Shown here: positions 12,234 through 32,267 of the stretch, in pieces | How positions within the stretch are numbered: the first letter of the stretch is position 1 | Layout of the letters: each line of letters begins with the position of its first letter | DNA from: Chelatococcus sp. YT9 | GTDB lineage: Bacteria; Pseudomonadota; Alphaproteobacteria; Rhizobiales; Beijerinckiaceae | NCBI RefSeq assembly: GCF_018398315.1 | Contig: NZ_JAHBRW010000001.1 | Location: 1,732,001-1,796,000 of the forward strand | Direction: 5' to 3' | Length of the DNA stretch: 64,000 bases | Program-made: the position numbers and the translations under genes | The notes under the pieces: model-generated | Databases searched by the model: none | What the model saw: only the letters and a program-made list of their open reading frames with translations | What the model was told of the DNA's origin: nothing

Positions 12234-12254
12234 CAGTTTTCCTCTCGTGACAAT

Positions 12255-12283
12255 CAAATACCAACCGGTTGGTATGTTGTCAA
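12255..12283 (-). promoter_or_regulatory. TetR promoter with an 18-bp perfect palindromic operator
   Basis: On the minus strand TTGACA (12283-12278) and TATTTG (12260-12255) are 17 bp apart. Nearly all of that spacer is the perfect palindrome ATACCAACCGGTTGGTAT (12258-12275). Bound repressor would block RNA polymerase directly. The A/T-ACC-GGTT core resembles operators of QacR/LmrA-like TetR proteins. Confidence 0.85.
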
Positions 12284-12477
12284 TCGCGAAAATCGTGCGG
12301 GCTCACGATCGGCATCACGCGGGCGAGAGAGCCTTCTGATAGCTCTTGGCAGCTGGACGGGCGGGTTACTGGAAGAGTTTCGACGTGGCCTGTCGTCCTG
12401 TTCCCGCAACCGGGCCGCAGCGGATTAATTCTGCAGCCCCGCATCCCTTGCCTCCGGGTCTGGAGACGATGCGTCTT

Positions 12478-13260
12478 TCAGAGGATCGCGACGGCCCGCG
12501 TCCACCCGGCCGAAGCCTTGCGAATTTTGACGGGAAAGCAGGAGACAGTGAAGCCGGTCGGGGGGAGCACTTCCAGCTGGTGCAGCTTTTCGAGATGGCA
12601 GTAAAGGCGTTCGCGCCCTGCCTTATGCCCTTCCCAGACGAGGCCGTAGTCGCCGGTCTCCTCAACCTTTTCTCGGGTGAAGTTGAATGGAGCATCCCAG
12701 CTCCAGGCATCGGTGCCCGTTATCTTGATGCCCTGCCGGGCCAGGAACAGCGTCGCCTCGCGGCCGACACCGCAGCCGGCGGTAACATAGTCTTTACGCG
12801 AATAACGGGAGCCCGCGCGCGTGTTAATCAGGACGATATCGAGGGGCTGGAGCGTGTGGCCGATCCTGTCCAGCTCCGCCGTGACGTCGTCGACGGTCGC
12901 GACATAGCCATCAGGGAAGTGGCGGAAATCGAGTTTGACGCCGGGCTTGAAGCACCAGTCGAGAGGGATTTCATCGATGGTCGGGGAGGGCTCCCCACCT
13001 TCGACGAGGTCATGATTGGTCGTGGGGTGAAAGTGATAGGGCGCATCGAGATGCGTTCCATGATGGGTCGTCACCTCCAGCGTCTCAATCGCCCAGGCTG
13101 CGCCGTCCGGGAGATGATGCGCTTGCAAGCTCGGGAAGGACGTCCGCATGCGATCGATGGTCACGTCATGGCCGAGATAGGTGATCCGCGGGCGGGAAAA
13201 ATCCGGATCGCTCACCACGTCGTTCTCAATGGGGATGGAGAGGTCAACGATACGCGCCAT
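12478..13260 (-). CDS. cyclase-family (kynurenine-formamidase-like) metal hydrolase
   Basis: The 260-residue protein carries the family metal motif HHGTHLDAPYHFHP near residue 67. This family includes kynurenine formamidase and isatin hydrolase, Zn or Mn enzymes that hydrolyse formamides or cyclic amides. It is the last gene of the branched-chain-type transporter operon, 39 bp after livF, so it probably acts on the imported compound or on a product of the divergent molybdenum-hydroxylase operon. ATG 13260 is chosen; a GTG at 13266 is in frame. The substrate is not determinable. Confidence 0.9.
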   Translation of the reverse strand: MARIVDLSIPIENDVVSDPDFSRPRITYLGHDVTIDRMRTSFPSLQAHHLPDGAAWAIETLEVTTHHGTHLDAPYHFHPTTNHDLVEGGEPSPTIDEIPLDWCFKPGVKLDFRHFPDGYVATVDDVTAELDRIGHTLQPLDIVLINTRAGSRYSRKDYVTAGCGVGREATLFLARQGIKITGTDAWSWDAPFNFTREKVEETGDYGLVWEGHKAGRERLYCHLEKLHQLEVLPPTGFTVSCFPVKIRKASAGWTRAVAIL

Positions 13261-13299
13261 CAGCACAATGTCCGTGTTGTCATTCTGGGGATCGGGCCA

Positions 13300-13989
13300 T
13301 CAAAGCCCGAGATAGGCGCGTCGGATCGCGGAATCCGCCGCAAGCTCCGCTGAGGCACCCGTTGTCGTGATATGGCCGGTTTCCAGCACATAGGCGCGGT
13401 CGGTGGCCGCAAGTGCCATCTCGGCGTTCTGTTCGGCGAGCAGCACCGTCATCCCCCGGGTCTTGAGCAGGCCGATGAGTTCGCGAATCTGGTCGACGAT
13501 CAGAGGGGCAAGGCCGAGCGTGGGCTCATCGAGCATCAGGACTTTAGGCCGTGACATCAGGGCGCGTGCGATAGCGAGCATCTGTTGCTCGCCGCCGGAC
13601 ATGCTGCCGGCAAACTGGCTGCTGCGCTCGCGCAGGCGGGGGAACAGCTCCAGCATGTCCTCGCACAAGGCTGGAAAGTCACCGCCGATGAAACCCATCT
13701 CGAGGTTCTCGAGCACCGTCATCTGCGGAAAGACATGGCGGCCCTCGGGCGACAGTGCGACGCCGCTGGCGACGCGCACATGGCTCGCCTGTCCGCTGAG
13801 CTCCGTGCCATCGATGCGGATCGAACCCGAGGACGTCGCGAGGCCGAGAATCGCCTTGAGGATGGAGGATTTGCCGGCGCCGTTGGCACCGATGAGCGCG
13901 ACCGCTTCACCACGGCCGGCTGCCAGCGAGATGTCGTCGACCGCCCTGACCTTGCCATAGGTGACACAAAGTCCGGAAAGCTCAAGCAT
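13300..13989 (-). CDS. livF: branched-chain-type ABC transporter ATPase (LivF)
   Basis: The 229-residue ATPase has Walker A GANGAGKSS near residue 34, signature MSGGEQQMLAIARAL near 130, Walker B VLMLDEPTLGLAP and a C-terminal RRAYLGL tail typical of LivF. Its ATG overlaps the last 8 bp of the livMG gene. It pairs with the ATPase domain of the fusion to power the importer. Confidence 0.95.
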   Translation of the reverse strand: MLELSGLCVTYGKVRAVDDISLAAGRGEAVALIGANGAGKSSILKAILGLATSSGSIRIDGTELSGQASHVRVASGVALSPEGRHVFPQMTVLENLEMGFIGGDFPALCEDMLELFPRLRERSSQFAGSMSGGEQQMLAIARALMSRPKVLMLDEPTLGLAPLIVDQIRELIGLLKTRGMTVLLAEQNAEMALAATDRAYVLETGHITTTGASAELAADSAIRRAYLGL

Positions 13990-15739
13990 TCCGCGCCTCC
14001 TCCGCCTTGTAGCCGCCGAGGTAGGCCTCGATGACAGTCTTGTCCGCCTGGATTTCGGCCGGCGTGCCCTGGGCGATCAGGCGGCCGCGATCGAGCACGA
14101 TGATGCGGTCGCAGAGCGCCATCATCATGCGCAGGTTGTGGTCGACGAGAACGATCGTCAGGCCGCGCTGGCGCAGGCCACGAAGCAGGTCTGCAAGGCG
14201 GTTGGCCTCGGTGTGGTTGAGGCCGGCCGCAGGCTCGTCCAGCATCAGGAGGCGAGGCCGCGTGGCCAGAGAAACAGCGATGGCCAGCATCTTCTGCTCG
14301 CCATAGGGAAGCGATCCCGCTTCGGGCGAGGCACGCTCCGCCAAGCCGACGAGGGCCAGGCAGTCCCAGGCGCGCTGGATGCGCTTGGCTTCCCTTGAGC
14401 GCCAACCGGTGCCGCGGAGTACCGAACTCAGAAGGGATGCGGGCTCCGAACAACTTGTGGCTGCGAGCACGTTCTCGAAGACGGTCTGGTTGCCGCAAAG
14501 CGCAGCCTGCTGGAACGTCCGTGCCAGTCCATGCGCGACGAGGCTGCTCGGCGCTTCACCTGTTACCTTGCGCTCGCCATAGCGGACCTCACCTTCCGTT
14601 GGCGGGGTGAAACCGCTGATCAGCGAGAGGCAGGTCGTCTTGCCGGCACCGTTCGGGCCGATGATGCCCACGAGTTCGCCGGGCTCGATGCTCATGCGGA
14701 CGTTGTCGACCGCAGTCAGCCCGCCGAACCGTTTGGTGAGATCCGTCACCGTGAGGCGCGGGGAGGGCTCGAAGGCGATCTCGCCGCCCTTGTCCGGCGC
14801 GCTGGGCGTGCGGAAGGGGGACGTCAGACGGAAGAGAGGCGCGAGCCCGCCCGGTTGGATGCGGATGACGGCCAGCAGGATCAGCGCGAAGATCGCGATC
14901 CGATATTCATCGACGAAACGCAGCGTCTCGGGAAGGGCCGCGAAGATGGCGCCGCCAAGAAGCGGGCCGATCAGCGTGCCCTTGCCGCCGAGAATGGCGA
15001 TCAAGAGTCCTGTCGCCGAGAACATCGGATTGAACAGATCCGGTGTGAGGACGAGCGTGCGCGGAATGAACAGGACGCCGGCAAATCCCGCCAGCCCCCC
15101 GGAGAGTGCGATGGCGATGACGCGCTGGCGCACGGTGCGAATGCCGATGCTCTCGGCGAGATCATTGGATTCGCGGATGACTTTCCAGGAGCGGCCGGTG
15201 GGGCTGTTGAGCAGCCGGTGCACGATGAACACGGCGAGGCCAAGCCCGAGCAGCGTCGCCAGGAGGTAGTATTGGTGGAAGACGAGACCGAGTGACTCGA
15301 TCGCCTCGACGCGCGGGCGCCGCACGATCAGGCCGAGCGGCCCGCGCGTGAGATCGACCCAGTTGGAGACGACGAGGCGCAGGATTTCGGCCGTCGTCAA
15401 TGTGGCGATCGCGAAATAGGCGCCGCCCAGCCGCACTGAGGCGAACCCGACCAGCGCGCCGAGGAGTGCGGCCGGGATCGGCGCGAACAACAGGGTCACC
15501 CAGTAGTTGATGCCGAAATTGATGATCACCAACCCGGCGACATAGGCGCTGAGCCCGAAGAAGGCGGCGTGGCCGAAGGAAATCAGGCCGAGATAACCCA
15601 CCGTGAGGTTGATCGACAGGCCGAAGATCGCAAGGACCGCGGCATAGGCCAGGAGGCCGCTGTAATAGCTTTGCCCGGCGAGCAGGAAGGGTGCCGCTAC
15701 CGCGAGGGCGATGGCCAGGATGATCAGGAGACGTCTCAT
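13982..15739 (-). CDS. fused branched-chain-type permease-ATPase (LivM-LivG)
   Basis: This 585-residue protein joins a LivM permease (residues 1 to about 330, with hydrophobic helices and SFGHAAFFGLSAYVAGL) to a LivG ATPase (from about 355). The ATPase domain has Walker A GPNGAGKTT, signature LPYGEQKMLAIAVSLA and Walker B LLMLDEPAAGLNH. The linker around 335-355 is rich in Pro and charged residues. The ATG overlaps the livH stop (ATGA). Such fusions are known in alphaproteobacteria and give fixed stoichiometry. Confidence 0.94.
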   Translation of the reverse strand: MRRLLIILAIALAVAAPFLLAGQSYYSGLLAYAAVLAIFGLSINLTVGYLGLISFGHAAFFGLSAYVAGLVIINFGINYWVTLLFAPIPAALLGALVGFASVRLGGAYFAIATLTTAEILRLVVSNWVDLTRGPLGLIVRRPRVEAIESLGLVFHQYYLLATLLGLGLAVFIVHRLLNSPTGRSWKVIRESNDLAESIGIRTVRQRVIAIALSGGLAGFAGVLFIPRTLVLTPDLFNPMFSATGLLIAILGGKGTLIGPLLGGAIFAALPETLRFVDEYRIAIFALILLAVIRIQPGGLAPLFRLTSPFRTPSAPDKGGEIAFEPSPRLTVTDLTKRFGGLTAVDNVRMSIEPGELVGIIGPNGAGKTTCLSLISGFTPPTEGEVRYGERKVTGEAPSSLVAHGLARTFQQAALCGNQTVFENVLAATSCSEPASLLSSVLRGTGWRSREAKRIQRAWDCLALVGLAERASPEAGSLPYGEQKMLAIAVSLATRPRLLMLDEPAAGLNHTEANRLADLLRGLRQRGLTIVLVDHNLRMMMALCDRIIVLDRGRLIAQGTPAEIQADKTVIEAYLGGYKAEEARNA

Positions 15740-16605
15740 CGGGCACGCCCCGCGAAAAGGCCATGCGGCCGGATGAGAAGGCACATCAGAAGCAGAGCGT
15801 AGATGATGGCGGTGCCCATTTCCTGTGGCATGAAGGCGCTGGCCAGGGCTTCGAGCAGGCCGAGAAGCAGCCCGCAGACGACCGCGCCCGTCGCATTCCC
15901 CATGCCGCCGATGACGACGACCACGAAGGCGGTGATGATGGCGTGCTGGCCCATGGATGGCGTGAAGAGGCTGACTGGCGCGATGAGGGCTCCGGCCGCC
16001 GCCGCTATGCCGGCCGCTCCGAGGAAGGTCAGCGTGCGGATGCGCGCGACATCGATGCCGACGACCTGCGCGGCGAATTCGCTCTGGGCGACGGCCCTGA
16101 TGCGGCGCCCGACGAGCGTACGACGCAGGACATATTCTATGGCGAGCAGGATGACGATGCCCGCAGCCAGCACAAGCAGCCGGTGGTTGGTGATGACGAT
16201 CGAACCCAGCGATATGGTCCCCTCCAGTCCCTCGACGCGCGACGGATTGGGCCCCCAAGTGGACAGGACCGACTGATGGAGCAGCAGGCTGACCGCGAAC
16301 GTGCTGAGCAGCACCGTGGATGGCCCATCCTTTGTCGGCAGGACTGGCCGCACCGCGATCAGGTCAACGAGGGCCGCGATGATAATGACGGCAACGACGG
16401 CCAGGATGAGCGCGAAACCGTACGGCAGACCGAGCATCGTGGTCGCGACGACGGCCATGAGGCCGCCCAGCATGTAAAGCTCGCCGTGCGAGAAATTGAT
16501 GACGTGGAGCACGCCGAAAATCATGGTCAGGCCGAGCGCCACGAGGGCATAGGCCATGCCCTGGGTCAGCCCGTTCACGCCTTGCTGAAGGAGAAGTTCA
16601 AGCAT
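15736..16605 (-). CDS. livH: branched-chain-type ABC permease (LivH)
   Basis: The 289-residue permease is a typical LivH, with the N-terminal signature GMAYALVALGLTMIFGVLHV and the following INFSHGELYMLGG. It forms the transmembrane pore with the LivM half of the fusion. It lies 79 bp downstream of the binding-protein gene, behind a stem-loop. Confidence 0.94.
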   Translation of the reverse strand: MLELLLQQGVNGLTQGMAYALVALGLTMIFGVLHVINFSHGELYMLGGLMAVVATTMLGLPYGFALILAVVAVIIIAALVDLIAVRPVLPTKDGPSTVLLSTFAVSLLLHQSVLSTWGPNPSRVEGLEGTISLGSIVITNHRLLVLAAGIVILLAIEYVLRRTLVGRRIRAVAQSEFAAQVVGIDVARIRTLTFLGAAGIAAAAGALIAPVSLFTPSMGQHAIITAFVVVVIGGMGNATGAVVCGLLLGLLEALASAFMPQEMGTAIIYALLLMCLLIRPHGLFAGRAR

Positions 16606-16628
16606 CGCATTGTTCCGGCATGCAGCCG

Positions 16629-16659
16629 CGGGAGGGCGCGCGTGACGCGCAACCTCCCG
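16629..16659 (-). repeat. stem-loop between binding-protein and livH genes
   Basis: CGGGAGG (16629-16635) pairs with CCTCCCG (16653-16659), continued inward by GCGCG/CGCGC after an AA bulge, leaving a 5-nt loop. There is no T-run. Such hairpins after the first binding-protein gene usually stabilise that part of the mRNA or attenuate read-through. Confidence 0.6.
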
Positions 16660-16684
16660 ATGGCGTTTGGACCTGTCGAGGCGG

Positions 16685-17797
16685 CTATCGGTCGACTACG
16701 ATCTCGCCAGACTTGACGGACAAACGGAGCAACTCACCGCTGGAAGCCTGGCCGTCCTTGTCGAAGGTGACTTCGCCACGGGGCGTTTCCCATTTGCCTT
16801 CATGGATGGTCTTGGCGATCTTGGCGGTGTCGTCGGCGGTCCCCGCCTTATCCATCGCCTTGGCGGCAATCCAGACGGTTTCAAAGCCGAGAACTTCGAT
16901 CTTCTCGGGCTTGCGACCGAATTTCTTCTGGAAAGCTTCGACGAAACGCTTGTTGAAAGCATTGTCGATCGCCGGGACGTAGATGTCCGCGCTGAAGGCC
17001 TGCTCTGCGGCTGCGCCGGCGATCTTTACGCCTTCGGAATTGAGGATGCCTGGCATCAGGCAGCGGTTGCCCTTGAATCCGAGGTCGGAGAGGACGCGCA
17101 GGATATTGCCGTACTGCTCCATGTTGGAGCCGACGATGCAGATCGTGTCCGCGCCGGATGCGCGCGCGTTCGTGGACATCGCCGCGAAATCATTCTGCTG
17201 CATGCCGAACGTGTCGGAATACACCAGCTTGTTGCCGAACAATTCCTTCATATGTTTGATCGTGACCTGGCCGAAGTCGCTGTTCTCCGCGAGAATAGCG
17301 ACCTTCTCTGGCTTGATCGTCTCCACAAGAAACGCATCAAACGACTTCGCGTCTTGCGCTGTCGTCGTATTCATCCGGAAAACCTTGTCGTATCCGGATT
17401 TCGTGACGTCCGGATGCTTCGGCACAGCCGCGATGAAAATGGCGTCCTCGCCCTCGACCACCGGAATGGCCGCCAGCGCCACGCTGCTGGAGATCTCGCC
17501 GGCAATCACCTTCACACCGTCCTGCGTGAGCAGGCGCTGAATCGCCGCGACCCCCTCGGGTGGCGAGAAGTTGGTGTCGTATGTAACAAGCTCGATCTTG
17601 CGACCGCCAAGAATGCCGCCATCCTGGTTGAGCATCTCGGCCGCAAGCTGGGCGCCCTCGACATTCTGCTTGCCGATGAGAGTCTTGATCGGATTGATCA
17701 AGCCGAGCTTGACCGGTTCAGATGCATTTGCCTGGCCAGTCACGGCAAGGATGGCGCCGAAGCTGAGCGCAACCAAGTGGCGCTTAAGAATTATCAT
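16685..17797 (-). CDS. branched-chain-type ABC substrate-binding protein (LivK-like)
   Basis: The 370-residue periplasmic protein has a signal peptide (cleavage near ANA/SE) and the type-I binding-protein fold (VKLGLINPIKTLIGKQNVEG, then AGEISSSVALA). Family members bind amino acids, aromatic acids, urea or amides. GGGAGG precedes the ATG. It is divergent from the TetR and catabolic operon, which links the ligand to that pathway. Confidence 0.93.
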   Translation of the reverse strand: MIILKRHLVALSFGAILAVTGQANASEPVKLGLINPIKTLIGKQNVEGAQLAAEMLNQDGGILGGRKIELVTYDTNFSPPEGVAAIQRLLTQDGVKVIAGEISSSVALAAIPVVEGEDAIFIAAVPKHPDVTKSGYDKVFRMNTTTAQDAKSFDAFLVETIKPEKVAILAENSDFGQVTIKHMKELFGNKLVYSDTFGMQQNDFAAMSTNARASGADTICIVGSNMEQYGNILRVLSDLGFKGNRCLMPGILNSEGVKIAGAAAEQAFSADIYVPAIDNAFNKRFVEAFQKKFGRKPEKIEVLGFETVWIAAKAMDKAGTADDTAKIAKTIHEGKWETPRGEVTFDKDGQASSGELLRLSVKSGEIVVDR

Positions 17798-17822
17798 GAC
17801 ATTTCCTCCCTATATGCGCGGC

Positions 17823-17858
17823 ACACAATCCAACTTTCGCGCTTGTGTCAAGCGCTTG
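17823..17858 (-). promoter_or_regulatory. putative livK promoter with a 10-bp palindrome
   Basis: On the minus strand a consensus TTGACA lies at 17851-17846 with a weak TTGTGT 17 bp further on. The perfect palindrome CAAGCGCTTG (17849-17858) overlaps the -35, and a second GCGCTTG copy begins at 17840. Its place in the 106-bp divergent region makes it a plausible site for the adjacent TetR protein. Confidence 0.45.
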
Positions 17859-17903
17859 CTTTAATCAGTTGACTGCATTACACGAGGGTGTGGAGGAAAT
17901 CGC

Positions 17904-18560
17904 ATGAGGCATGTTCAGGATGTCGCATCAGACACGCGCGAGCGGTTGATGGACGTCGCGGAGCGTCTATTTGCTGAGCGTGGCTACAGCAACGTGCCGA
18001 CAAGGATGATCGCAGAAGAGGCGAGCGCCAATACCGCAGCCGTTCACTATCATTTCGGCTCGAAGGAGCGTCTGCTAGAGGCCGTTTTCCATCGCCGCCT
18101 TGAGCCGATGAACAGGGAGCGGATCGCCAAGATAAAGGAAGCGATGGCAGCATCCGTCGACAGTCGTCCGGATGTCGAGGTGGTGCTGCGCGCGTTCATC
18201 GAGCCGACCCTGCGCAAACCTCGGGACGATGGCGAGCGCGCGTTTCGCCTTTTGTCCGGCCGCGCATCCACGGATCCCAACCCCGAGGTCAAGCGGATCC
18301 TGTTTCAGGCCTATGATGAAGTGGCCCGGTCTTTCGCCGATGCCATCTCCAAGGCCTGCCCGGAGCTGTCGGCCGAGGAGCTGTTCTGGCGGGTCGCCTG
18401 CGTTTACGGGGCGATGCTTTACATCCGTGCCGACAACGGCCGCCTGCAGCCCGTCTTCGGCGAGGAATTCAGCCTCGCCGATCCCGAAGGTGCGCTGCGC
18501 TACGCCATCGCCTTCATGAAGGCAGGCATGCAGGCCGCCCCCGCCGGCCCTGTCGACTGA
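17904..18560 (+). CDS. TetR/AcrR-family transcriptional regulator
   Basis: This 218-residue regulator has a clear TetR helix-turn-helix (RERLMDVAERLFAERGYSNV, then TRMIAEEASANTAAVHYHFG) at about residues 12-52. The C-terminal domain, with EKVL-like FIEPTLRKPRDDGERAFRLL, resembles the PsrA/TetR_C_30-type ligand domain. It is the first gene of the rightward operon and faces livK across 106 bp, so it probably controls both directions. The stop is 23 bp before the amidohydrolase GTG. Confidence 0.92.
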   Translation: MRHVQDVASDTRERLMDVAERLFAERGYSNVPTRMIAEEASANTAAVHYHFGSKERLLEAVFHRRLEPMNRERIAKIKEAMAASVDSRPDVEVVLRAFIEPTLRKPRDDGERAFRLLSGRASTDPNPEVKRILFQAYDEVARSFADAISKACPELSAEELFWRVACVYGAMLYIRADNGRLQPVFGEEFSLADPEGALRYAIAFMKAGMQAAPAGPVD

Positions 18561-18583
18561 CGTTCAAACTGGAGAGATCAACG

Positions 18584-19993
18584 GTGCCCACAAAGATCTT
18601 GCTCAAAGGCGGGCAGGTGATCGGCGGTCCGCGCGAGCCGGCGGACCTGCTGATCGAAGGCGATATCATCGCCGCCATCGGTCCGTCGATCGAAGCTGCC
18701 GACGCTGAGATCATCGACGTGAGCGGCATGATCGTCGCGCCGGGCTTTGTCGATACGCACCGGCATATCTGGCAGACCTCGATCCGTGGCGTCGCGGCCG
18801 ACTGGAGCCTTGTGGAATACATCCGCTTCATCCGGCTCGGCTATGCCACCGCTTACCGGCCGGAGGATGTCTGGATCAGCACCTACGCGGGCGCGCTCGA
18901 AGCCCTTGACGCCGGCATCACCACCATCTGCGATTTCTGCCATATCATGCGCACGCCCGAGCATGCCGATGCCGGCATCGACGGGCTGGACCGCTCCGGA
19001 ATACGAGGCCAGTTCTACTACGGCTTCTATGACGTACCGTCCGAGCCGCGCAGTTTCGCCGATCACGACGCTCGTGTGCGGCATGCGCGCCACTTCTTCG
19101 ATGCACGTTTCCGCACGCGTCCTGCGAGTTCGCTCGTGACGATGGGTGTCGCGCTGACCGAGTTCAACCTCATACCGGTCGCCCATACCGCCGACGAGAT
19201 CACCGTCGCGCGTGACTTCGATATCCCGATGACCATGCATATGGGCACGCTCTCCACGCCCGACAGCGTCGCACGCCTGGCGCAAGCCGGCCTGCTCGGC
19301 CCTCGCATGCTCCATGTTCATTGCAACGCGTCGAGCGATGATGAGCTGAAGGCGATCGCCGACAGTGGCGGGGCGCTCAGCGTCACGCCGGAGACGGAGC
19401 TGCAGATGGGCATGGGCATTCCCGTCATCAACCGCGCCCTGGCGGTGGGGCTGCGTCCCACGCTCGGGATCGATATCGTTTCCGATTATTCCGGCGACAT
19501 GTTCGCCCAGATGCGCATCGCACTCCAGACGGCCCGCGCGGTCGACAATCAGAAGATCCTGGATGCCGGTCGGATGCCGCCCGAGATCGATCTGAAGGTC
19601 GCGGACGCCTACGATTTCGCCACGATCGATGGTGCCAGGGCAATCGGGCTCGATGCGCAAGTAGGCTCGCTCGCGGTCGGAAAACAGGCTGATATCATCA
19701 CGGTTCGGCAGGATGGCATTCATCATGCGCCGCGCACACCTGACCCTGTCGCCGCCCTCGTTCTCCAGGTGCGGCCGTCCGATATCGACAGCGTCTTTGT
19801 CGCCGGAGAGGCGCGCAAGCGCGATGGCCGCCTCGTCGGCGTCGATGTCGAGGCGGTGAGGGCCCGCGCGCAGGCTTCGTCGGACCATCTGGCTGCCGCT
19901 TTCGCCGAGGCCATGCAAAAGACCGGGCAGACGGCCACCCGCGCAACCTATGGCTCGGAACTCGCGCGCGCCACGGGAGGGCATGTATCATGA
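18584..19993 (+). CDS. amidohydrolase of the ATZ/TRZ deaminase group
   Basis: The 469-residue enzyme belongs to the amidohydrolase superfamily that includes 8-oxoguanine deaminase, guanine deaminase and triazine hydrolases. DTHRHIW near residue 62 supplies the HxH pair, TMHMGT near 217 and HVHCN near 245 the further His ligands, and GIDIVSDYSGD near 300 the catalytic Asp. The terminal strand motif GSLAVGKQADIITV is typical. GTG with GGAGAG 8 bp upstream is the start. It likely hydrolyses an amino or oxo group from an N-heterocycle. Exact substrate unknown. Confidence 0.92.
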   Translation: MPTKILLKGGQVIGGPREPADLLIEGDIIAAIGPSIEAADAEIIDVSGMIVAPGFVDTHRHIWQTSIRGVAADWSLVEYIRFIRLGYATAYRPEDVWISTYAGALEALDAGITTICDFCHIMRTPEHADAGIDGLDRSGIRGQFYYGFYDVPSEPRSFADHDARVRHARHFFDARFRTRPASSLVTMGVALTEFNLIPVAHTADEITVARDFDIPMTMHMGTLSTPDSVARLAQAGLLGPRMLHVHCNASSDDELKAIADSGGALSVTPETELQMGMGIPVINRALAVGLRPTLGIDIVSDYSGDMFAQMRIALQTARAVDNQKILDAGRMPPEIDLKVADAYDFATIDGARAIGLDAQVGSLAVGKQADIITVRQDGIHHAPRTPDPVAALVLQVRPSDIDSVFVAGEARKRDGRLVGVDVEAVRARAQASSDHLAAAFAEAMQKTGQTATRATYGSELARATGGHVS

Positions 19994-21018
19994 AACTCGC
20001 CAGTCTCGCGGACGGGCGTGACGGCCGCCTGGTCGTCGTTTCTCCGGATCTCAGCCGCGCGGCGGACGCTGGCGCCATAGCGCCGACCCTGCAGGCGGCG
20101 CTGGATCATTGGGCCGACGCGGCACCACGGCTACAAGAACTCTCCGAGCGGTTGGCGAACGGAACGGAAGCCGGCTTTGCTTTCGACACGGCGGCCTGTG
20201 CGTCGCCGCTGCCGCGCGCCTTCCAATGGGCCGACGGCTCGGCTTATGTGAACCATGTCGACCTCGTGCGCCGCGCGCGCGGCGCGGAACTCCCGGCCTC
20301 TTTCTGGGTCGATCCGCTGATGTACCAGGGCGGCTCCGACGCATTCCTCGGGCCGCGCGAGCCAATCACCTTGCCGGATCCCGCATGGGGCGTGGACTTC
20401 GAGGGCGAGATCGCCGTCATCATCGACGATCTGCCGCTCGGCGCCGGCCGAGTAGAAGCGCTCGACGCGATCCGGCTTGTGATGCTGTGCAATGACGTTT
20501 CGCTCCGCAATCTCATCCCGGGCGAACTGGCGAAGGGCTTCGGGTTTTTCCATTCCAAGCCCGCCTCCGCCTTCTCGCCGGTGGCCGTCACCCCTGAGGC
20601 GCTGGGTCCGGCATGGAAAGATGGCCGGCTCAACCTGCCGCTCCATAGCTGGCTCAACGGTGTCGATTTCGGCAAGCCGAACGCGGGTCAAGACATGACA
20701 TTTGACTTTGGCACGCTGGTCGCCCATGCGGCGCGCTCCCGCCGGCTTTCGGCGGGAACCATCATCGGGTCGGGCACGGTCTCAAACCGTGGCGAGGATG
20801 GCGGCCCGGGCCGCCGCGTGGATGAGGGCGGCGTCGGCTATTCCTGCATTGCCGAACTCCGTATGATCGAGACGATCCAGACGGGAAAGCCCGTAACCCC
20901 CTTCATGCAGCCCGGCGACCGTGTCCGTATCGAGATGTTCGACGGCGAGGGAAGGTCGATCTTCGGTGCCATCGACCAGCGCTTTCTCCCCACCGACCCT
21001 GCAGTGAAGGCGGCGTAG
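19990..21018 (+). CDS. fumarylacetoacetate-hydrolase-fold protein
   Basis: The 342-residue protein carries the FAH C-terminal catalytic fold. DFEGEIAVII near residue 137 supplies acidic metal ligands, KGFGFFHSKPASAFSPVAV is near 180, and GSGTVSNRG near 260 is the usual active-site loop. FAH-fold enzymes cleave C-C bonds of beta-diketo acids, or decarboxylate or hydrate related acids with Mg. ATG overlaps the amidohydrolase stop. It would fit a late, ring-opened intermediate. Confidence 0.9.
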   Translation: MKLASLADGRDGRLVVVSPDLSRAADAGAIAPTLQAALDHWADAAPRLQELSERLANGTEAGFAFDTAACASPLPRAFQWADGSAYVNHVDLVRRARGAELPASFWVDPLMYQGGSDAFLGPREPITLPDPAWGVDFEGEIAVIIDDLPLGAGRVEALDAIRLVMLCNDVSLRNLIPGELAKGFGFFHSKPASAFSPVAVTPEALGPAWKDGRLNLPLHSWLNGVDFGKPNAGQDMTFDFGTLVAHAARSRRLSAGTIIGSGTVSNRGEDGGPGRRVDEGGVGYSCIAELRMIETIQTGKPVTPFMQPGDRVRIEMFDGEGRSIFGAIDQRFLPTDPAVKAA

Positions 21019-21019
21019 C

Positions 21020-21832
21020 ATGACGGCCGGTTTGGTCTATCGCATGCCCTATGGCTTCGGTCCGAGTGCCGGACCGCGCCAGGGGCCGGATGGTCGCCCA
21101 TTCGATTGGACGCATGCGCCCCGCAAGCGCTCTGTCGCCGTGAGCTATCTCACGGATGCGGCGCTTCTCCGCAATTTGCTCCCCCCCGGTTTTTCGCTCG
21201 CCGATGAGCCCGTGGTGACAGTCGAGCTGCAGTATTTCACGGAATTGGAATGGCTCGCCGGCCGCGGCTACAACACACTTGGCGTCAAGTTTCCCGCGAC
21301 CTTTAGGGGGGCTGTCGATGAAGTCACCGGGATGTTTCTCGCGGTCTTGTGGGAAAACCTGCCGGATCCGATCCTGACTGGCCGTGATGAACTTGGGTTT
21401 GCCAAGCTTTATGCTGATATACCGGATCCGCGCATTTTCCGGGGGCGTGAATACCACGGCGCCATGTGGTTCGGCCATCGCTTCATCGACATAGAGCTTG
21501 ATGCGATCGAGGAAGCGCCGCCCGCCTCGCCGTCAGGCCCGGCGGCCGGCGGCACGTTGCACTACAAGTATGTGCCCGCGACGGGACAGTGGGGCGAGGC
21601 CGACGTCGCCTATGCCTGCCACACGCCGCCCGGTGCAAGCCAGCAACGCACTATCGCGGCCTTCCGTGCCGAGGGCACGGTGACTATCCACGACACGCAC
21701 TGGGCTGACATGCCAACGCAGTTCCACATCGTTCGCGCGCTTGCCGCCCTGCCCATGATCGAGGCGCGGGGCGCCGTGATCATCGAGACTCGTGGCGGCA
21801 AGGATCTGTCTGACCAGCGCCGCCTGACCTGA
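21020..21832 (+). CDS. acetoacetate-decarboxylase-family protein
   Basis: The 270-residue protein resembles acetoacetate decarboxylase: a beta-cone fold with LLPPGFSLADEPVVTVELQY near residue 54 and GRDELGFAKLYADIPDPR near 117. The Lys of GFAKL aligns with the Schiff-base lysine region of the family, but the neighbouring PKK is not exact. Such homologues are often found in catabolic operons with aldolase/dehydratase rather than decarboxylase activity. It follows the FAH gene by 1 bp. Confidence 0.82.
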   Translation: MTAGLVYRMPYGFGPSAGPRQGPDGRPFDWTHAPRKRSVAVSYLTDAALLRNLLPPGFSLADEPVVTVELQYFTELEWLAGRGYNTLGVKFPATFRGAVDEVTGMFLAVLWENLPDPILTGRDELGFAKLYADIPDPRIFRGREYHGAMWFGHRFIDIELDAIEEAPPASPSGPAAGGTLHYKYVPATGQWGEADVAYACHTPPGASQQRTIAAFRAEGTVTIHDTHWADMPTQFHIVRALAALPMIEARGAVIIETRGGKDLSDQRRLT

Positions 21833-21841
21833 GGACCGGAT

Positions 21842-22411
21842 ATGAGCACGGGAACACTGCCGCCGTTCCGGCGGATCATCACGACCAACGCGGAGGGTGG
21901 TCGCTCGCGCATTCTGGCCGATGCGCCGGTTCCGCATGTCCTCCAGTCCGCTCCCGGGCGTGGATTGATCAACCTGTGGGCGACCGAGTCCACCCCGCCT
22001 TCGCTCGACAAGCTCGATGACGCTGCCTGGCCGGTTCAGCTCGAGCCGCCTGCAGGTGGTACCGTCTTCCGCTTCTTTCAGCTCGGCCCGCGGACGGTGT
22101 CCAACGAGGATCCCGATGTTGCCGAACGGGCCGCGGCGGCCGCATTCGCGCGCATGGGCGCGGCGCATCTGCGCGTCGATACAACTCGCCATCCCTCGAT
22201 GCACAAGTCCCATACCCTCGACTACATCATGCTGCTCAAGGGCAGGGTGCTGCTGGTCCTCGATGAGGACGAGACAGAGCTGCAGCCTTTTGACGTGGTG
22301 ATCCAGCGTGGCACCAACCACGCATGGGTCAATCTGGAGGACGAGCCGGCGCTTTTGATGGGCGTACTCATGGACGCAGCGCGTCACCCCACCGGTGGCG
22401 AACAGCCATGA
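21842..22411 (+). CDS. cupin-domain protein
   Basis: The 189-residue protein has a C-terminal cupin barrel. HPSMHKSHTLDYIMLLKG near residue 119 and LQPFDVVIQRGTNHAW near 150 are the two cupin motifs, though the first metal cluster is degenerate. The N-terminal hundred residues show no separate domain that I recognise. Members are found beside dehydrogenases and hydrolases and may act as isomerases, dioxygenases or ligand sensors. The stop overlaps the next ATG. Confidence 0.85.
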   Translation: MSTGTLPPFRRIITTNAEGGRSRILADAPVPHVLQSAPGRGLINLWATESTPPSLDKLDDAAWPVQLEPPAGGTVFRFFQLGPRTVSNEDPDVAERAAAAAFARMGAAHLRVDTTRHPSMHKSHTLDYIMLLKGRVLLVLDEDETELQPFDVVIQRGTNHAWVNLEDEPALLMGVLMDAARHPTGGEQP

Positions 22412-23283
22412 AGCCCGCGCCCTTCGATTACAGGAGGCCCGCCACGAAGGCCGAGGCGCTTCGTTTGCTGTCGGACCATCGCGACAACGACGCGAAGATC
22501 CTCGCGGGTGGGCAAAGCCTGGTGCCAATGATGAACTTCCGCATGGCGCAGCCGGCGGTGATCATTGATATCAATCGGCTCTCGGAGCTCGCCTTCGTGA
22601 AGGATCTGGGCGAGCACATCGCCATCGGCGCGCTCACCCGCCATAACGACGTCATGCGTCATCCTCTTGTCCGAGCCCATCTGCCGCTGCTGGCGATGGC
22701 CTACGAGAATGTCGCCCATCACACTATTCGCAACCGCGGCACGATTGGCGGCAATGTCGTTCATGCGGACGCTGCATCCGAGGTGCCCGCCGTCCTGACC
22801 ACCCTCGACGCGGAATTCGTGATCGAGAGCACCGAGGGCGTCCGCATCGTCGGCGCCGATGACTTCTTCCTCGGCGTGTTCACGACCGCCGTCGAAGCGC
22901 ATGAACTGCTGGTTGAGATACGCGTACCACGCCCGAACGCCCATGCCGGCGTGTCTTTCGAGGAGGTCAGCCTCCGCAAGGGCGATTTCGCGATCGTGTC
23001 CGTCGCGGTGGAGATCCTGGCCAGAGACGGCAGGTTTGAGTCCGCCCGCATTGTCATAGGCGGCGTGGAGGAACGCGCCTTGCGTGCTGGAACCGCCGAG
23101 CAGGCGCTGGCCGGCACCGGCCTTTCCGATGATGCGATTCATGCGGCCGTAACGGCGCAGATCGACGAAATTTCTTTTTTCGACGCGCCGGGCATATCGG
23201 CCGAATACCGCCGTGATGCGGCCAAGGCCTTGCTGGAGCGTAACATCCGGGCAGCGGCCACACGGGCAGGGAGGATGAATTGA
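22408..23283 (+). CDS. molybdenum hydroxylase FAD-binding subunit
   Basis: The 291-residue medium subunit of a xanthine-dehydrogenase-family enzyme shows AGGQSLVPMMNFRMAQP near residue 33 and NRGTIGGNVVHADAASE near 110, the two flavin-binding motifs. The C-terminal CO-dehydrogenase-type flavoprotein domain is complete. It transfers electrons from the 2Fe-2S subunit to the acceptor. It starts at the ATG overlapping the cupin stop and ends on the TTG of the iron-sulfur subunit. Confidence 0.94.
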   Translation: MKPAPFDYRRPATKAEALRLLSDHRDNDAKILAGGQSLVPMMNFRMAQPAVIIDINRLSELAFVKDLGEHIAIGALTRHNDVMRHPLVRAHLPLLAMAYENVAHHTIRNRGTIGGNVVHADAASEVPAVLTTLDAEFVIESTEGVRIVGADDFFLGVFTTAVEAHELLVEIRVPRPNAHAGVSFEEVSLRKGDFAIVSVAVEILARDGRFESARIVIGGVEERALRAGTAEQALAGTGLSDDAIHAAVTAQIDEISFFDAPGISAEYRRDAAKALLERNIRAAATRAGRMN

Positions 23284-23765
23284 GCCACATCACCATCTCC
23301 GTGACCATCAATGGCGAGCTCATCGAGACAACGGTGGAGCCGCGTCTGCTCGTATGCGATTTCCTTCGTGATCATCTCGGTCTCACAGGCACGCATGTCG
23401 GCTGCGAGCATGGGGTGTGCGGCGCCTGCACCGTGCTTGTGGACGGACGCACCGCGCGCTCCTGTCTGCTGTTCGCCGCCCAGCTCGATGGGGCGCAGGT
23501 CGAGACCGTCGAGGGTCTGCTGCTTCCCGACGGAGAGCTTTCGCCGCTGCAAGCCTCCTTCCGCGACAATCACGGGCTCCAGTGCGGCTTCTGCACGCCC
23601 GGCATGCTGATGACTGCGACCGAGCTGCTCCGCCAGGGCGGACTGCTCGATCGTGAAGAGGTGCGCGAGGCGATTTCAGGCAACCTGTGCCGGTGTACGG
23701 GCTATGAGACCATCGTCGATGCGATCCTGACCGCGAGCCGTGATCAGGCCAAGGAGACGGTATGA
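23280..23765 (+). CDS. molybdenum hydroxylase 2Fe-2S subunit
   Basis: The 161-residue small subunit binds two [2Fe-2S] clusters. The plant-ferredoxin motif CEHGVCGACTVLVDG is near residue 43 with a distal Cys at SCLLFAAQ, and the helical-domain cysteines are in CGFCTPGM and CRCTGY. The start is an unusual TTG overlapping the previous stop (TTGA). A lower-efficiency start inside a coupled operon can help set subunit ratio. Confidence 0.94.
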   Translation: MSHITISVTINGELIETTVEPRLLVCDFLRDHLGLTGTHVGCEHGVCGACTVLVDGRTARSCLLFAAQLDGAQVETVEGLLLPDGELSPLQASFRDNHGLQCGFCTPGMLMTATELLRQGGLLDREEVREAISGNLCRCTGYETIVDAILTASRDQAKETV

Positions 23766-26185
23766 TGTCTTCGGATCGACGCAATTTTCGGTGGATTGGT
23801 CAGAATCTCAAGCGCCCGGAGGATGTGAGGCTTGTCTCCGGTCGTGGGCGCTTTGTTGACGATGTGAAGCTGCCACGTATGGCGCATGCGGCCGTGCTCG
23901 CGAGCCCGCATGCGCATGCCCAAATCGTGTCGATCAATCTTGATGCGGCGCGCGCCTTGCCCGGCGTCTATCTGGCGGTCGGAGGCCGGGAGTTTGCGGA
24001 GAGCGTTGGCCCCATGCCGACGCTGTCGTCCCCACCCATCGTGCAGCATTGTATCGCGGTTGATCGTGTCCGGCATGTCGGTGAGCCGGTCGCCGCAGTT
24101 GTCGCCGCGTCGCGTTACATTGCCGAGGATGCGCTTGCCCTCATCGAGGTCGACTACGAATTGCTGCCGGCTGTGGTCGACCCCGAAGAGGCGATGGCCG
24201 CCGAGGGGGACGCCGTGCTGCACCCGGAGCGCGGCAGCAACGTCGTCCACAGCAGCCGCCATGTCTGGGGGCCGTTGGACGAGGCCTTTTCCTCGGCAGC
24301 CCATGTGGTGCGCCGCCGTTTCCGATGGCCGCGCGTTTCTCCGCAGCCGATCGAGACGTCGGGTGCCGTGGTCGATTACGACCGCGCCGAGAAGAAGTTC
24401 ACGGTACATTCGAACATGTCCCAGCAGAGCGTCATCGGCGCGCGGCTGGCGCGGGCGCTTGGCGTCGATCCCTTCCAGATGAACTTCCATATCAGCGATG
24501 TGGGTGGAAGTTTCGGCGGCAAATCGTCTCTCTACCATGTGCCCTTGATCGCCGCCGGGCTCGCGCGGCTTGCAGGCCGCCCCGTCAAATACGTCGAGGA
24601 TCGGCTAGAGCATATGGCGAATGGCAACCAGCATGCCTCGGACCGCATCTATGATGCGGCCCTCGCCGTGTCCGCTGACGGCACCTTCACAGGCCTGAGC
24701 CTCAAGGTTATCGACGACTACGGCGCTTATTTCATGATGAACACCGGTTCCCACGGCAATGCTCTTGCCCAGGCGACCGGCCCTTATCGTATTCCAGCGC
24801 TCGAATATGATCTCACCGCCGTCCTGACTAACAAGACGCAGCAGGCGCCTTATCGCGGTTTCGGCGGCGAGGTTGGCAACTTCGTGCTCGAACGGCTCGT
24901 CGATGCGGCCGCGCAGGAAACGGGTTTCGACCGCATCGCATTGCGCCGCCGGAATTTTATCGACAACGCCGAGTTCCCCTACCGGATTCCGAACGGCAAT
25001 ATCTACGATAGCGGCGACTATCACCGCGTGCTCGACCGGGCGCTCTCCCATATCGACCTCGATGCCTGGGAGGCCCGGCGTGTGAGCGCCCGTGCCGAGG
25101 GCAAGCGGATCGGGATCGGCGTTGCAACGGTGAACGAGCGCAGCGTGCTTTCGGTGACGGAGCTTTGGTTTCTCGATGAAAAGCCGGCCTTCCCCCAAAC
25201 GAGCAGCCCCGAGAGCGTGCGCATCCGTATCAATGCGGACGGCATGGCCGTTGTCACGATCTTCGCGCCGCATTGGGGCAATAGTCCCGAAACAGTCGCC
25301 AAGCAATTGACGGCCGAATACCTCCAGATGGATCCCGATCACATCGCGGTGAACTATGCCTCGACAGAAAACGGCTTGATCTCGAAGGGGCCTGTTGGTA
25401 GCCGATACACTGTCATGCTGGCAGGAGCGATCGCGGGGGCCACGGCGACGTTGAAAACCAAGCTCATCCGCTTCGGTGCGCATATGCTAGGTGTCGCGGA
25501 AGACGAGGTGGAGGTGCATGACGAATCTGTCTCCGTGATCGGCGACCCATCACGCCGGCAGTCATTCGCGGATATCGCGCGTGCGGCGCACAGCTTCCGT
25601 TTATCTTTTCCGGGCGGCGAGGACTTTCGCAGCGGCCTCTCCGCCGAACATACCTATGATCATCCCTATACGACGATGCCGAAGGCTGACAGGTCCGACC
25701 TCGGTGTCTTCTATCCCATCGTCGGCCATGCCTGCCACATCGTGGTCGTGGAGATCGATGAGCGGACGAACCAGACGCGCATCGTGAAATACATCGCCGT
25801 CCATGACGCGGGCACGATCGTCAACCCGCGCATCGTTGAAGGCCAGATCAGGGGCGGCATCGCGCAGGGCATCGGCACCGCCCTCTATGAGATCTATCGC
25901 TACGGCGAGGGCGGCCAACTGCTGACGGCCTCTCTCGCAGATTATGCCATACCGACCGCGCATGAAATCCCGGACATTGTCGTCGATCATGTGGAGACAC
26001 CCTCGCCCTTCACGGAGTTCGGCATCAAGGGATGCGGGGAGGGAGGGCGTCTCGCCTGCATGCCCGCTGTGGCGTCGGCGATAGACGATGCTTTTCGCGC
26101 GGAAGGCCTGTTCGTAGCTGAACTCCCCGTCACCCCGTCTCATTTGCACGCAATGAGAAGCGGGTCGGGCTCTTCGCCGGAATAG
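23762..26185 (+). CDS. molybdenum hydroxylase catalytic (molybdopterin) subunit
   Basis: The 807-residue large subunit has the family landmarks: GGSFGGKSSLYH, then QAPYRGFGGEVGNFVLERL, IAQGIGTALYE and near the C-terminus GIKGCGEGGRLACMP with the catalytic glutamate. The loop that would carry the CO-dehydrogenase cysteine (AYRCSFR) reads APYRGFGGE, so this is not an aerobic CO dehydrogenase. Such enzymes hydroxylate electron-poor carbons of purines, nicotinate, quinolines or aldehydes. Start is ATG 23762; ATG 23765 is an alternative. Confidence 0.95.
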   Translation: MMSSDRRNFRWIGQNLKRPEDVRLVSGRGRFVDDVKLPRMAHAAVLASPHAHAQIVSINLDAARALPGVYLAVGGREFAESVGPMPTLSSPPIVQHCIAVDRVRHVGEPVAAVVAASRYIAEDALALIEVDYELLPAVVDPEEAMAAEGDAVLHPERGSNVVHSSRHVWGPLDEAFSSAAHVVRRRFRWPRVSPQPIETSGAVVDYDRAEKKFTVHSNMSQQSVIGARLARALGVDPFQMNFHISDVGGSFGGKSSLYHVPLIAAGLARLAGRPVKYVEDRLEHMANGNQHASDRIYDAALAVSADGTFTGLSLKVIDDYGAYFMMNTGSHGNALAQATGPYRIPALEYDLTAVLTNKTQQAPYRGFGGEVGNFVLERLVDAAAQETGFDRIALRRRNFIDNAEFPYRIPNGNIYDSGDYHRVLDRALSHIDLDAWEARRVSARAEGKRIGIGVATVNERSVLSVTELWFLDEKPAFPQTSSPESVRIRINADGMAVVTIFAPHWGNSPETVAKQLTAEYLQMDPDHIAVNYASTENGLISKGPVGSRYTVMLAGAIAGATATLKTKLIRFGAHMLGVAEDEVEVHDESVSVIGDPSRRQSFADIARAAHSFRLSFPGGEDFRSGLSAEHTYDHPYTTMPKADRSDLGVFYPIVGHACHIVVVEIDERTNQTRIVKYIAVHDAGTIVNPRIVEGQIRGGIAQGIGTALYEIYRYGEGGQLLTASLADYAIPTAHEIPDIVVDHVETPSPFTEFGIKGCGEGGRLACMPAVASAIDDAFRAEGLFVAELPVTPSHLHAMRSGSGSSPE

Positions 26186-26486
26186 TGCATCCTCCATAAG
26201 TCTGTATTCGACCAATGGGGATTGGTCCGATGATTGTCTTAATAAGGTGAAAGCAAGTTGATTCTCTGAGCATCCTCCGATCTCGTTGAATACGAGATTT
26301 CATTGGCATGGCCGGGCTTGCCCGGCCATCCCGATAAGAAAGGCCGATTGTTTCGATTCCCGGCACCGGGTCGGGATGACGGGTCGGGTATTTCAACCAG
26401 ATCGGAAAACAGTCGCCGCTGCACCATCGATCATGCCGCAGGCGTTGCTGTGTGACGCGCAGATACTCCAACATGGGAGAGATTTG
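26186..26486. other. intergenic stretch carrying REP-like palindromes
   Basis: The 301 bp between the catalytic subunit and the CoxG-like gene contain two palindromic units, one near 26308 and a degenerate one near 26358-26378. They are the sort of extragenic repeat common in Hyphomicrobiales. A GGGAGAG ribosome-binding site directly precedes the next gene. Confidence 0.6.
26308..26329. repeat. REP-like perfect palindrome
   Basis: ATGGCCGGGC (26308-26317) and GCCCGGCCAT (26320-26329) are perfect 10-bp arms around TT. A degenerate second unit (ATTCCCG...CGGGAT, about 26356-26377) follows. A related unit occurs at 47933-47958. The family seems dispersed and extragenic. Confidence 0.75.
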
Positions 26487-26978
26487 ATGGCTTTGCTGAT
26501 TGAAGGTGAGGAGCGGATCGCCGCGCCGGTTCAGGTCGTGTGGGATGCCCTGAATGATCCCGCCATTTTGCAGCAGTGCATCCCCGGCTGCCAGTCCCTG
26601 GAAACTACCGATGTTGGCGCGATGGAGGCAACGGTCGTTCTCAAAATCGGACCGATAAAGGCGACATTCGCCGGCTCGGTGACATTGACCAATCTCGATC
26701 CGCCCAACGGCTACACCATCCAGGGAGAGGGAAAGGGCGGCGTCGCCGGCTTCGCCAAGGGCGGCGCGGACGTTGCTCTTACGCCGGATGGTCCGGAACA
26801 TACGCTTCTGCGCTATACAGCAAAGGCGGATGTCGGCGGAAAGATCGCGCAGCTCGGAAGCCGCTTGATGATGTCAACGGCCAAGAAACTATCTGGAGAA
26901 TTCTTCTCGGCTCTTGCAGAGACCATCGGCGCGGGCGCAAAGGAAACAGAGCTCCGTGAAGATGGCGCTTCCGGATAG
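26487..26978 (+). CDS. CoxG-family SRPBCC protein
   Basis: This 163-residue START-fold protein is of the CO-dehydrogenase subunit G group (IAAPVQVVWDALNDPAILQQ near residue 11, then CIPGCQSLE). It commonly accompanies molybdenum hydroxylases and helps enzyme maturation or membrane attachment. ATG 26487 follows GGGAGAG. No C-terminal membrane tail is present, unlike some CoxG proteins. The 301-bp gap with REP units means it may be expressed at a different level from the enzyme. Confidence 0.88.
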   Translation: MALLIEGEERIAAPVQVVWDALNDPAILQQCIPGCQSLETTDVGAMEATVVLKIGPIKATFAGSVTLTNLDPPNGYTIQGEGKGGVAGFAKGGADVALTPDGPEHTLLRYTAKADVGGKIAQLGSRLMMSTAKKLSGEFFSALAETIGAGAKETELREDGASG

Positions 26979-27202
26979 GAAAAATATTCTGACCGGTGGC
27001 GACGGATCCAGGAATTTTACTCGATGAGGCAGAATCGTTCCCGCAGGACATCTATTCGCGGGGACCATTTTTTAGTCAATCTCACCGAACCTCAGTGGCG
27101 CAAGGCTAGGCCGATAAACCGACGAATACTGGCTGATAATTATGCCGCCATTGGTTTTTGTCGTGTTGACAAATATCGTGCTTCTATGGTCGCATGACGG
27201 GT

Positions 27203-27415
27203 ATGAGCGACGAGAAGATCAAAGGTCCGGCATCCTATTTTCCTTCCATCGAGAAGAAATATGGTCGCCCGATATCTTACTGGAAGGGCTTGGTTCGTGC
27301 GGAGCTCCCTGCCAAGCACATGGAACTCGTCGCCTTCTTGAAGGAACAGCATGGGATGGGGCATGGCCATGCCAATGCGATCGTTGCTCATACGCTAGCC
27401 GAGGGCGACACCTGA
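27203..27415 (+). CDS. DUF4287-domain small protein
   Basis: This 70-residue protein has the features of DUF4287: KGPASYFPSIEKKYGRP near the start and GMGHGHANAIVAHTL near the end. The family is widespread in soil bacteria and its function is unknown; the C-terminal half looks like a small helical binding module. ATG 27203 matches family length, with ATG 27194 also in frame. It is monocistronic. Confidence 0.82.
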   Translation: MSDEKIKGPASYFPSIEKKYGRPISYWKGLVRAELPAKHMELVAFLKEQHGMGHGHANAIVAHTLAEGDT

Positions 27416-27848
27416 TCCACGTTGCGATCTGGAAATCATGAGCATGAGTTCCGGTTAAAGGCTGTTCTTTGAGGAGCAGTCCTGGCCGTGGAACCCTTCT
27501 GCTTTGTCGCTCATTCAAAGACCAAATCCGCGGGGACTGATTCAGGCTCGCCGTTGATTTTCGCGTGCGACCATCTTGCCGGATGAATAGCGGGCCTGTC
27601 GTTTTGACGGGACGCCCTCCACTTCTCCACCTCTCCAGATCCCGGAAGCTTGAGCCGCGGCATACGCATCCGGGCGGTCCGCGGATTTACTTTCAGTCAG
27701 CGCGACATGGCGGCAGTGGTCCTCACCGGTCTGAACCGCTCCCGCATATGCAGCTTGACCGGGTGAGATGACCATACTACCGTATGACAATCTTGGACAA
27801 GAAAACCGAGCCGCAGCCTGACGCGGCCTCATTGCGGGAGGATCAGAG
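27416..27848. other. 433-bp regulatory stretch upstream of the Gfo/Idh operon
   Basis: I find no gene in this stretch. The right end holds TTGACC (27756-27761), an inverted repeat at 27774-27787 and a GGGAGG ribosome-binding site at 27836-27841. The left part shows nothing I can assign. Confidence 0.5.
27774..27787 (+). promoter_or_regulatory. candidate GntR operator CATAC-N4-GTATG
   Basis: Perfect 5-bp arms CATAC and GTATG flank TACC, 61 bp before the first gene and 13 bp after a TTGACC hexamer. It would overlap the -10 region. FCD-type GntR repressors bind such GTAT-centred repeats, and a GntR gene ends this operon. Confidence 0.45.
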
Positions 27849-32257: not shown

Positions 32258-32267
32258 GGAGGGCTGC

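Follow-up and report, generated by a model that had tools for sequence, protein, structure and literature searches.

Two described catabolic clusters are among the known systems closest to the locus reported here. In the 4-hydroxypyridine (kpi) cluster of Arthrobacter sp. IN13, the Amidohydro_1 protein KpiC is reported to open 3,4-dihydroxypyridine and is accompanied by KpiD, a protein of the fumarylacetoacetate hydrolase (FAH) family. In the part of that paper considered here, the cluster starts with a flavin monooxygenase and no Liv importer, acetoacetate decarboxylase-like protein (ADC) or cyclase is seen (PMC7356986). The lumichrome (lum) cluster of Nocardioides simplex encodes a xanthine-oxidase-like enzyme together with metallohydrolase and FAH genes to which the portion of the source considered assigns no role, the FAH being LumV; it also has P450, Rieske and thiamine pyrophosphate (TPP) enzymes (PMC12746152). 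Here, we describe an island of Chelatococcus sp. YT9 that resembles the first cluster in joining Amidohydro_1 and FAH proteins (KpiC being compared by description only) and the second in joining a xanthine-oxidase-like enzyme and an FAH-like gene, and that differs from both in its remaining content. It lies in a stretch of 64,000 nucleotides (the window; contig NZ_JAHBRW010000001.1, positions 1,732,001 to 1,796,000) of contig 1 (4.37 Mb, the largest seen) of a genome of 6.74 Mb in 7 contigs, and occupies window positions 12478-26978. A search that covered mostly open-access literature retrieved no described cluster with its combination of genes, in agreement with the initial annotation of the window. 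The island is thus a new arrangement of known families, including one enzyme subfamily without assignable chemistry.

The island consists of two divergent gene runs. We tentatively propose, at a little less than even confidence, that it is inducible and turns a cyclic compound, by hydrolytic ring opening, into a beta-diketo acid, which would then be cleaved and decarboxylated. Its features are the following:

12478..13266, minus strand: cyclase-family hydrolase of 262 aa (PF04199, 126.5 bits), found in all four genus genomes
13300..13989, minus strand: LivF-type ATPase (PF00005), 90-96% in three relatives and 54% in Reyranella L038
13982..15739, minus strand: fused LivM-LivG permease/ATPase (PF02653, PF00005 and PF12399)
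15736..16605, minus strand: LivH permease (PF02653)
16685..17797, minus strand: LivK-type substrate-binding protein (PF13458)
17848..17875, strand not assigned: operator-like element of the divergent promoter region, conserved in the four genus genomes and Reyranella L038
17904..18560, plus strand: TetR regulator with a TetR_C_30 domain (PF00440, PF17939)
18584..19993, plus strand: amidohydrolase of TRZ/ATZ type, NF006056/PRK08204 subfamily (NCBIfam, 482 vs 391 bits)
19990..21018, plus strand: FAH-family protein (PF01557 and PF18288)
21020..21832, plus strand: ADC (PF06314)
21842..22411, plus strand: single-domain cupin of 189 aa (PF07883)
22408..23283, plus strand: molybdenum hydroxylase FAD subunit, accessory module (PF00941, PF03450)
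23280..23765, plus strand: molybdenum hydroxylase 2Fe-2S subunit, accessory module (PF01799, PF00111)
23762..26185, plus strand: molybdenum hydroxylase catalytic subunit (MoL), accessory module (PF01315, PF02738, PF20256)
26487..26978, plus strand: CoxG-like protein, accessory module (PF06240, 126 bits)

A profile search of the window proteins placed all island genes above the curated Pfam cut-offs, the cupin barely so (29.2 vs 27.2 bits). This bears out the gene set and positions of the initial annotation, including the 106-bp gap between the two operons (17798-17903). Four junctions are 4-bp overlaps (amidohydrolase/FAH, cupin/FAD, FAD/2Fe-2S and 2Fe-2S/MoL), and 301 bp separate MoL from CoxG. 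Probable corrected starts are 22408 for the FAD subunit and 26487 for CoxG. The fused LivM-LivG protein probably starts at 15739 (585 aa, its ATG overlapping the LivH stop), though the open frame reaches 16258.

We compared four genomes of the genus: that of the window (G000), G015, G055 and G087. The gene order is kept in the three others at 85.8-90.1% DNA identity, and the association is therefore not due to chance. The amidohydrolase is encoded at 93% or more in all four genomes. The whole block from cyclase to cupin is found in four of four, and the molybdenum module in three of four. With G015 and G055, DNA synteny spans the module up to the ends of the compared stretches (~31.5 kb), with an interruption of ~0.76-0.8 kb that starts at the end of CoxG. 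On the window side, the corresponding segment (26940-27698, ~0.76 kb from the CoxG end) is unaligned to the G015 and G055 stretches and matches only itself in its own genome. With G087, synteny runs from 12478 to 22419, ending 8 bp beyond the cupin stop; the best full-length MoL match in that genome has 36% identity, and a fragment of 143 residues matches at 44% elsewhere. Since it is absent beside the core in one of the four genomes, the molybdenum hydroxylase is, judging from these sequences, an add-on to the island and not an integral part of it. Ring hydroxylation, one of the steps read in the initial annotation, is hence not supported as an integral one. In G087 (locus L020, 7446-8207), the cupin is followed on the same strand, where the molybdenum module would stand, by a gene for an RraA-like protein of the aldolase family that might be a functional replacement of the module.

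Outside the genus, the system is rare. At E <= 1e-90, the amidohydrolase was found in one genome of a phylum-wide sample of 398 and LivK in one of 289 genomes of the class, in both cases the window's own, which also holds a LivK paralog at 45%. The ADC was found in eight of 298 genomes of the family at E <= 1e-20, four being of this genus, and in five of 385 genomes of the class at E <= 1e-30, its own included. A scan of named genomes with the amidohydrolase matched at least 594 stretches, 470 of which were confirmed and the best 80 kept; the genome of the window and those very near to it may be missing from this set. The closest among them (56%) belongs to a metagenome-assembled genome of Reyranella (locus L038), where a cupin (35% identical to that of the island) and Liv genes (LivF 54%, LivMG 49%, LivH 55%, LivK 60%) diverge from TetR (43%) and the amidohydrolase. 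At 1e-12, this locus gave no match for FAH, ADC, cyclase or hydroxylase. Directly after the Reyranella amidohydrolase (11438-12601) stands a gene for a Meth_synt_2 protein (cobalamin-independent synthase catalytic domain), perhaps a replacement downstream step.

The operator-like site in the gap (17848-17875) is identical in the four genus genomes and is matched on the opposite strand in Reyranella L038 (9215-9256). The alignment score is 35; the highest value among 1000 dinucleotide-shuffled versions of the window gap was 26. A promoter scan found no sigma-70 site and one terminator-like match, which overlaps the operator-like site. The regulator itself matched a PsrA-like NCBIfam model (NF053516) below its cut-off (124.5 of 300 bits). 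The shared promoter site indicates that the window and Reyranella loci belong to one regulated system. Since Reyranella keeps the importer, TetR and amidohydrolase without FAH, ADC, cyclase or hydroxylase, these three components are likely to be the old core, perhaps together with the cupin. An importer and a regulator of its own support the view, already put forward in the initial annotation, that this would be a catabolic island.

With 482 bits, the amidohydrolase scores above the curated NF006056 threshold of 391 (PRK08204, named 'hypothetical protein'). We aligned it with 97 relatives, drawn from 86 loci that matched at E <= 1e-40; the resulting 98 sequences, trimmed to the local match, include three near-identical genus orthologs. 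Like AtzA, TrzN and the adenosine and S-adenosylhomocysteine (SAH) deaminases, the subfamily has the fold and the five metal-ligand positions of the TRZ/ATZ amidohydrolases: H59, H61, H219, H246 and D297 (HxH, H, H, D) are invariant in 98/98, and the nearest folds of a structure model (pLDDT 90.5) are AtzA and adenosine deaminases. It differs from them in the HxxE glutamate, which solved SAH/adenosine-type and other relatives carry at the aligned position: none of the 98 sequences has a Glu at +2 to +4 from H219, and all of them have an invariant E272 instead. By these features, it resembles a metal-dependent hydrolase but lacks one of the traits that define deaminases. Since this Glu is missing and another invariant Glu is present, ordinary deamination, a step of the initial annotation, is not indicated.

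The FAH has the homogentisate pathway as its nearest described relative. It is 62-70% identical to hmgA-linked fumarylacetoacetases, with the same two domains, and its best solved relative is 3lzk (E 1.7e-145). Four plasmid neighbourhoods were opened, picked from the best 25 of 105 matching records: in all four, the relative stands beside hmgA or one gene off, and in three also with maiA. In G015, there are two further FAH paralogs (62%), one adjoining hmgA and the other separated from hmgA by a transposase gene. This placement, based on nearest matches and not on a tree, does not support the N-heterocycle reading of the initial annotation. Unlike in the alphaproteobacterial hmgA-FAH-maiA pathway, no hmgA was found in the genome of the island: PF04209 (homogentisate dioxygenase) is matched in none of the window's genome, G055 and G087, and is present twice in G015. 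Because its relatives are hmgA-linked and PF04209 was not found in its own genome, the FAH appears to be a fumarylacetoacetase of homogentisate type that acts on a different acid.

In the scheme that we infer, for the chemical steps, their order and their regulation alike, a Liv (HAAT)-type ABC importer would take up a small cyclic compound, probably acidic or amide-like. TetR would keep both divergent operons repressed at the gap site, and binding of this compound, or of a product formed early, would relieve the repression. Hydrolytic ring opening would then fall to the non-canonical, metal-dependent amidohydrolase and the cyclase-family hydrolase, with a beta-diketo acid or an acyl-acetoacetate as the outcome. 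The FAH would cut this ring-opened acid by a retro-Claisen reaction, as fumarylacetoacetase does with fumarylacetoacetate, and the ADC would decarboxylate the beta-keto acid or cleave it by a retro-aldol reaction. The molybdenum hydroxylase and CoxG, present in three of the four species, would provide an optional entry hydroxylation that widens the substrate range.

Relatives of the importer are consistent with such a scheme. LivK is 60% identical to its Reyranella counterpart, 49% to a Variovorax protein and 45% to the paralog of its own genome. The paralog is accompanied by genes for enoyl-CoA hydratases, 3-hydroxyacyl-CoA dehydrogenase, thiolase, acyl-CoA dehydrogenase and CoA transferase, and the Variovorax relative lies in a large cluster with PrpF, flavin monooxygenase, amidohydrolase and FAH; both contexts would point to organic acids. 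The ADC fits the acetoacetate decarboxylase superfamily by PF06314 and by a conserved lysine, Lys129, which we take to be the Schiff-base lysine. It is invariant in the eight aligned rows, among which that of G087 is frame-offset (false N-terminal extension, missing C-terminus) and served for this position only. As a precedent only, two ADC-related genes are induced on phenol in Saccharolobus, according to the part of the report considered (PMC7820114).

The proposal draws on the partners that recur beside relatives of the island genes. We viewed seven of the 70 matching plasmid records for the cyclase. An FAH-family or fahA gene adjoins the relative in Haematobacter, Azospirillum and Aminobacter and is one gene off in Variovorax, and no FAH gene stands beside it in the Porphyrobacter, R. 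tumorigenes and R. leguminosarum neighbourhoods; this rate of four in seven is biased, since Haematobacter was picked for an FAH named in its listing. For the amidohydrolase, three of ten plasmid relatives were opened. Two are accompanied by genes for an intradiol dioxygenase and a maleylacetate reductase, and the third (Porphyrobacter) shares its locus with a cyclase relative (66%) and a beta-keto acid cleavage enzyme (BKACE); amidohydrolase and cyclase relatives are also together in two further sphingomonads. The R. leguminosarum relative of the ADC stands with an FAH (25% to that of the island), a VOC protein and a phenylpropionate-type hydroxylase, and the three other opened plasmid relatives have catabolic surroundings of other kinds. 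Five wider ADC loci include one (L023, ADC 39%) that is followed by Liv-type transporter genes and one (L025) with an FAH relative ~6 kb away. Furthermore, SMP-30 and BKACE occur in the same two of four opened neighbourhoods of MoL relatives. The recurring ones, namely FAH, ADC, BKACE, SMP-30 and the intradiol dioxygenase found with maleylacetate reductase, act in the metabolism of beta-diketones, beta-keto acids and lactones and of the products of ring cleavage. Therefore, we favour a hydrolytic opening to a beta-diketo acid.

Several observations weigh against this proposal. Two of the seven cyclase relatives are without either partner, and the FAHs near cyclase relatives are 48% (Azospirillum) and 23% identical to that of the island, two others being unmatched at 1e-6. 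An FAH was nearby in one of the four ADC plasmid relatives opened (out of eight, 38-52%). Among the best 80 amidohydrolase loci, none has an ADC match, four have an FAH within 10 kb and three a cyclase. Since the relatives are 38-66% identical and their contexts varied, a shared chemistry is not assured. Moreover, molybdenum hydroxylases more commonly attack N-heteroaromatics or aldehydes.

This last point leads to the use of an N-heterocycle, which was the reading of the initial annotation. Hydroxylation by the molybdenum enzyme would give a lactam or pyridone; ring opening by the amidohydrolase and cyclase would follow, and the acid thus formed would be cut by the FAH and ADC. We view this pathway as possible and not favoured, its probability being rather low. 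MoL is of the xanthine oxidase family, as shown by its molybdenum cofactor (MoCo) domains, the FAD and 2Fe-2S subunits and the catalytic Glu (Glu760, within KGCGEGG), and the nearest solved structure of this xanthine dehydrogenase (XDH)-type protein is quinoline 2-oxidoreductase. The cyclase weakly matches the solved isatin hydrolase (E 4.6e-4), and scores 24.1 bits against TIGR03035 (arylformamidase/kynurenine formamidase KynB), below the cut-off of 223.05. KpiC and KpiD, and the lum cluster, are precedents for such a gene set. An aspartate dehydrogenase-type protein is encoded near a MoL relative (L140), and a ring-opening amidohydrolase lies ~6.6 kb from the Aminobacter cyclase. Candidate amidase frames, judged by eye, were seen near seven amidohydrolase loci, one of them on the same strand; these were the only frames used from a neighbour clustering of 84 loci that was swamped by antisense frames. 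On the other side, the molybdenum module is missing in one of four genomes, the deaminase Glu is missing in all aligned amidohydrolases, and the N-metabolism genes near relatives are few, none being common to the opened islands. The pathway is kept because molybdenum hydroxylases commonly act on N-heteroaromatics, because of KpiC and because of these few N-metabolism genes. An N-heterocycle may thus be used, as initially proposed, but the opened neighbourhoods favour cyclic ketones, lactones and aromatic acids.

It is also conceivable, but unlikely, that the NF006056/PRK08204 subfamily, which has lost HxxE and carries E272 at another place in its active-site sequence, is an undescribed enzyme class: ring opening would then proceed without deamination, for instance through C-C hydrolysis or through O2-dependent cleavage as reported for KpiC, and the product would pass to a re-purposed fumarylacetoacetase and the ADC.

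The core and the molybdenum module could instead be two adjoining independent units, a core catabolic operon and a hydroxylase operon with a substrate of its own. They are separable in G087, and the MoL relatives at 49-54% (three plasmid records and, among 297 genomes of the order, two in addition to its own), named by family alone in their records, stand without core genes, the one exception being a TetR (31-35%) in two of the four viewed. In the four neighbourhoods opened, two of them plasmid-borne, FAD and 2Fe-2S subunits adjoin MoL in all, TetR in three and CoxG in two. The 4-bp overlap of cupin and FAD genes and the joined order kept in three of four species suggest co-translation and make this separation quite improbable. 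A cyclase shared with the MoL cluster of Ancylobacter was discarded, the two PF04199-type proteins being only 25% identical over a fragment. Molybdenum hydroxylases are abundant in the genome of the window, with nine MoCoBD_1 matches on contigs 1 and 2.

Membership of a known pathway (nicotinate, quinoline, xanthine, CO oxidation or glyceraldehyde oxidation) is very unlikely. MoL shares its subunits and the position of its catalytic Glu with quinoline 2-oxidoreductase, CO dehydrogenase and 6-hydroxypseudooxynicotine dehydrogenase, and matches several such models at high bits. However, it scores far under the curated cut-offs: 13 NCBIfam families matched it, none above its cut-off (for instance CODH group 5, 488 of 950 bits, and XdhA, 333 of 780) and no nicotinate model being among them. 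Its nearest relatives are at 49-54%, and the neighbour genes differ. These scores, which are not a tree, do not place MoL within a clade of known substrate. Where CoxL bears its Cys loop with CSFR, MoL reads QAPYRGFGG, as initially noticed; together with the sub-cut-off scores, this rules out an aerobic CO dehydrogenase. A flavonoid pathway was also discarded, the considered part of PMC11069340 containing no FAH, ADC, amidohydrolase or cyclase terms. Lastly, a relocated fragment of the homogentisate/tyrosine pathway, suggested by the hmgA-linked relatives of the FAH, is scarcely credible, since neither hmgA nor maiA is among the island genes and the absence of a PF04209 match contradicts that pathway, barring a homogentisate dioxygenase outside this family.

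Beyond the island, window positions 27849-35114 encode a GFO/IDH/MocA oxidoreductase, a creatininase-family hydrolase, a second cupin, a D-2-hydroxyacid dehydrogenase, TctC, TctA and a GntR/FCD regulator. Synteny with G015 and G055 extends through this region to ~31.5 kb, and the genes look like a separate polyol or hydroxy-acid pathway. On the other side, near the island, a gene for a DUF1254/DUF1214 protein adjoins that of an MFS transporter (7414-9132). The cupin of the island had no plasmid match at 1e-20.

If the proposed scheme is true, the island would make accessible to testing a widespread amidohydrolase subfamily, which is named 'hypothetical protein' in NCBIfam and whose best 80 loci come from several phyla. 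It would also be a case of a homogentisate-type fumarylacetoacetase re-used without homogentisate. Furthermore, a natural comparison between species that carry the molybdenum module and one that lacks it would directly test what this module adds to the substrate range.

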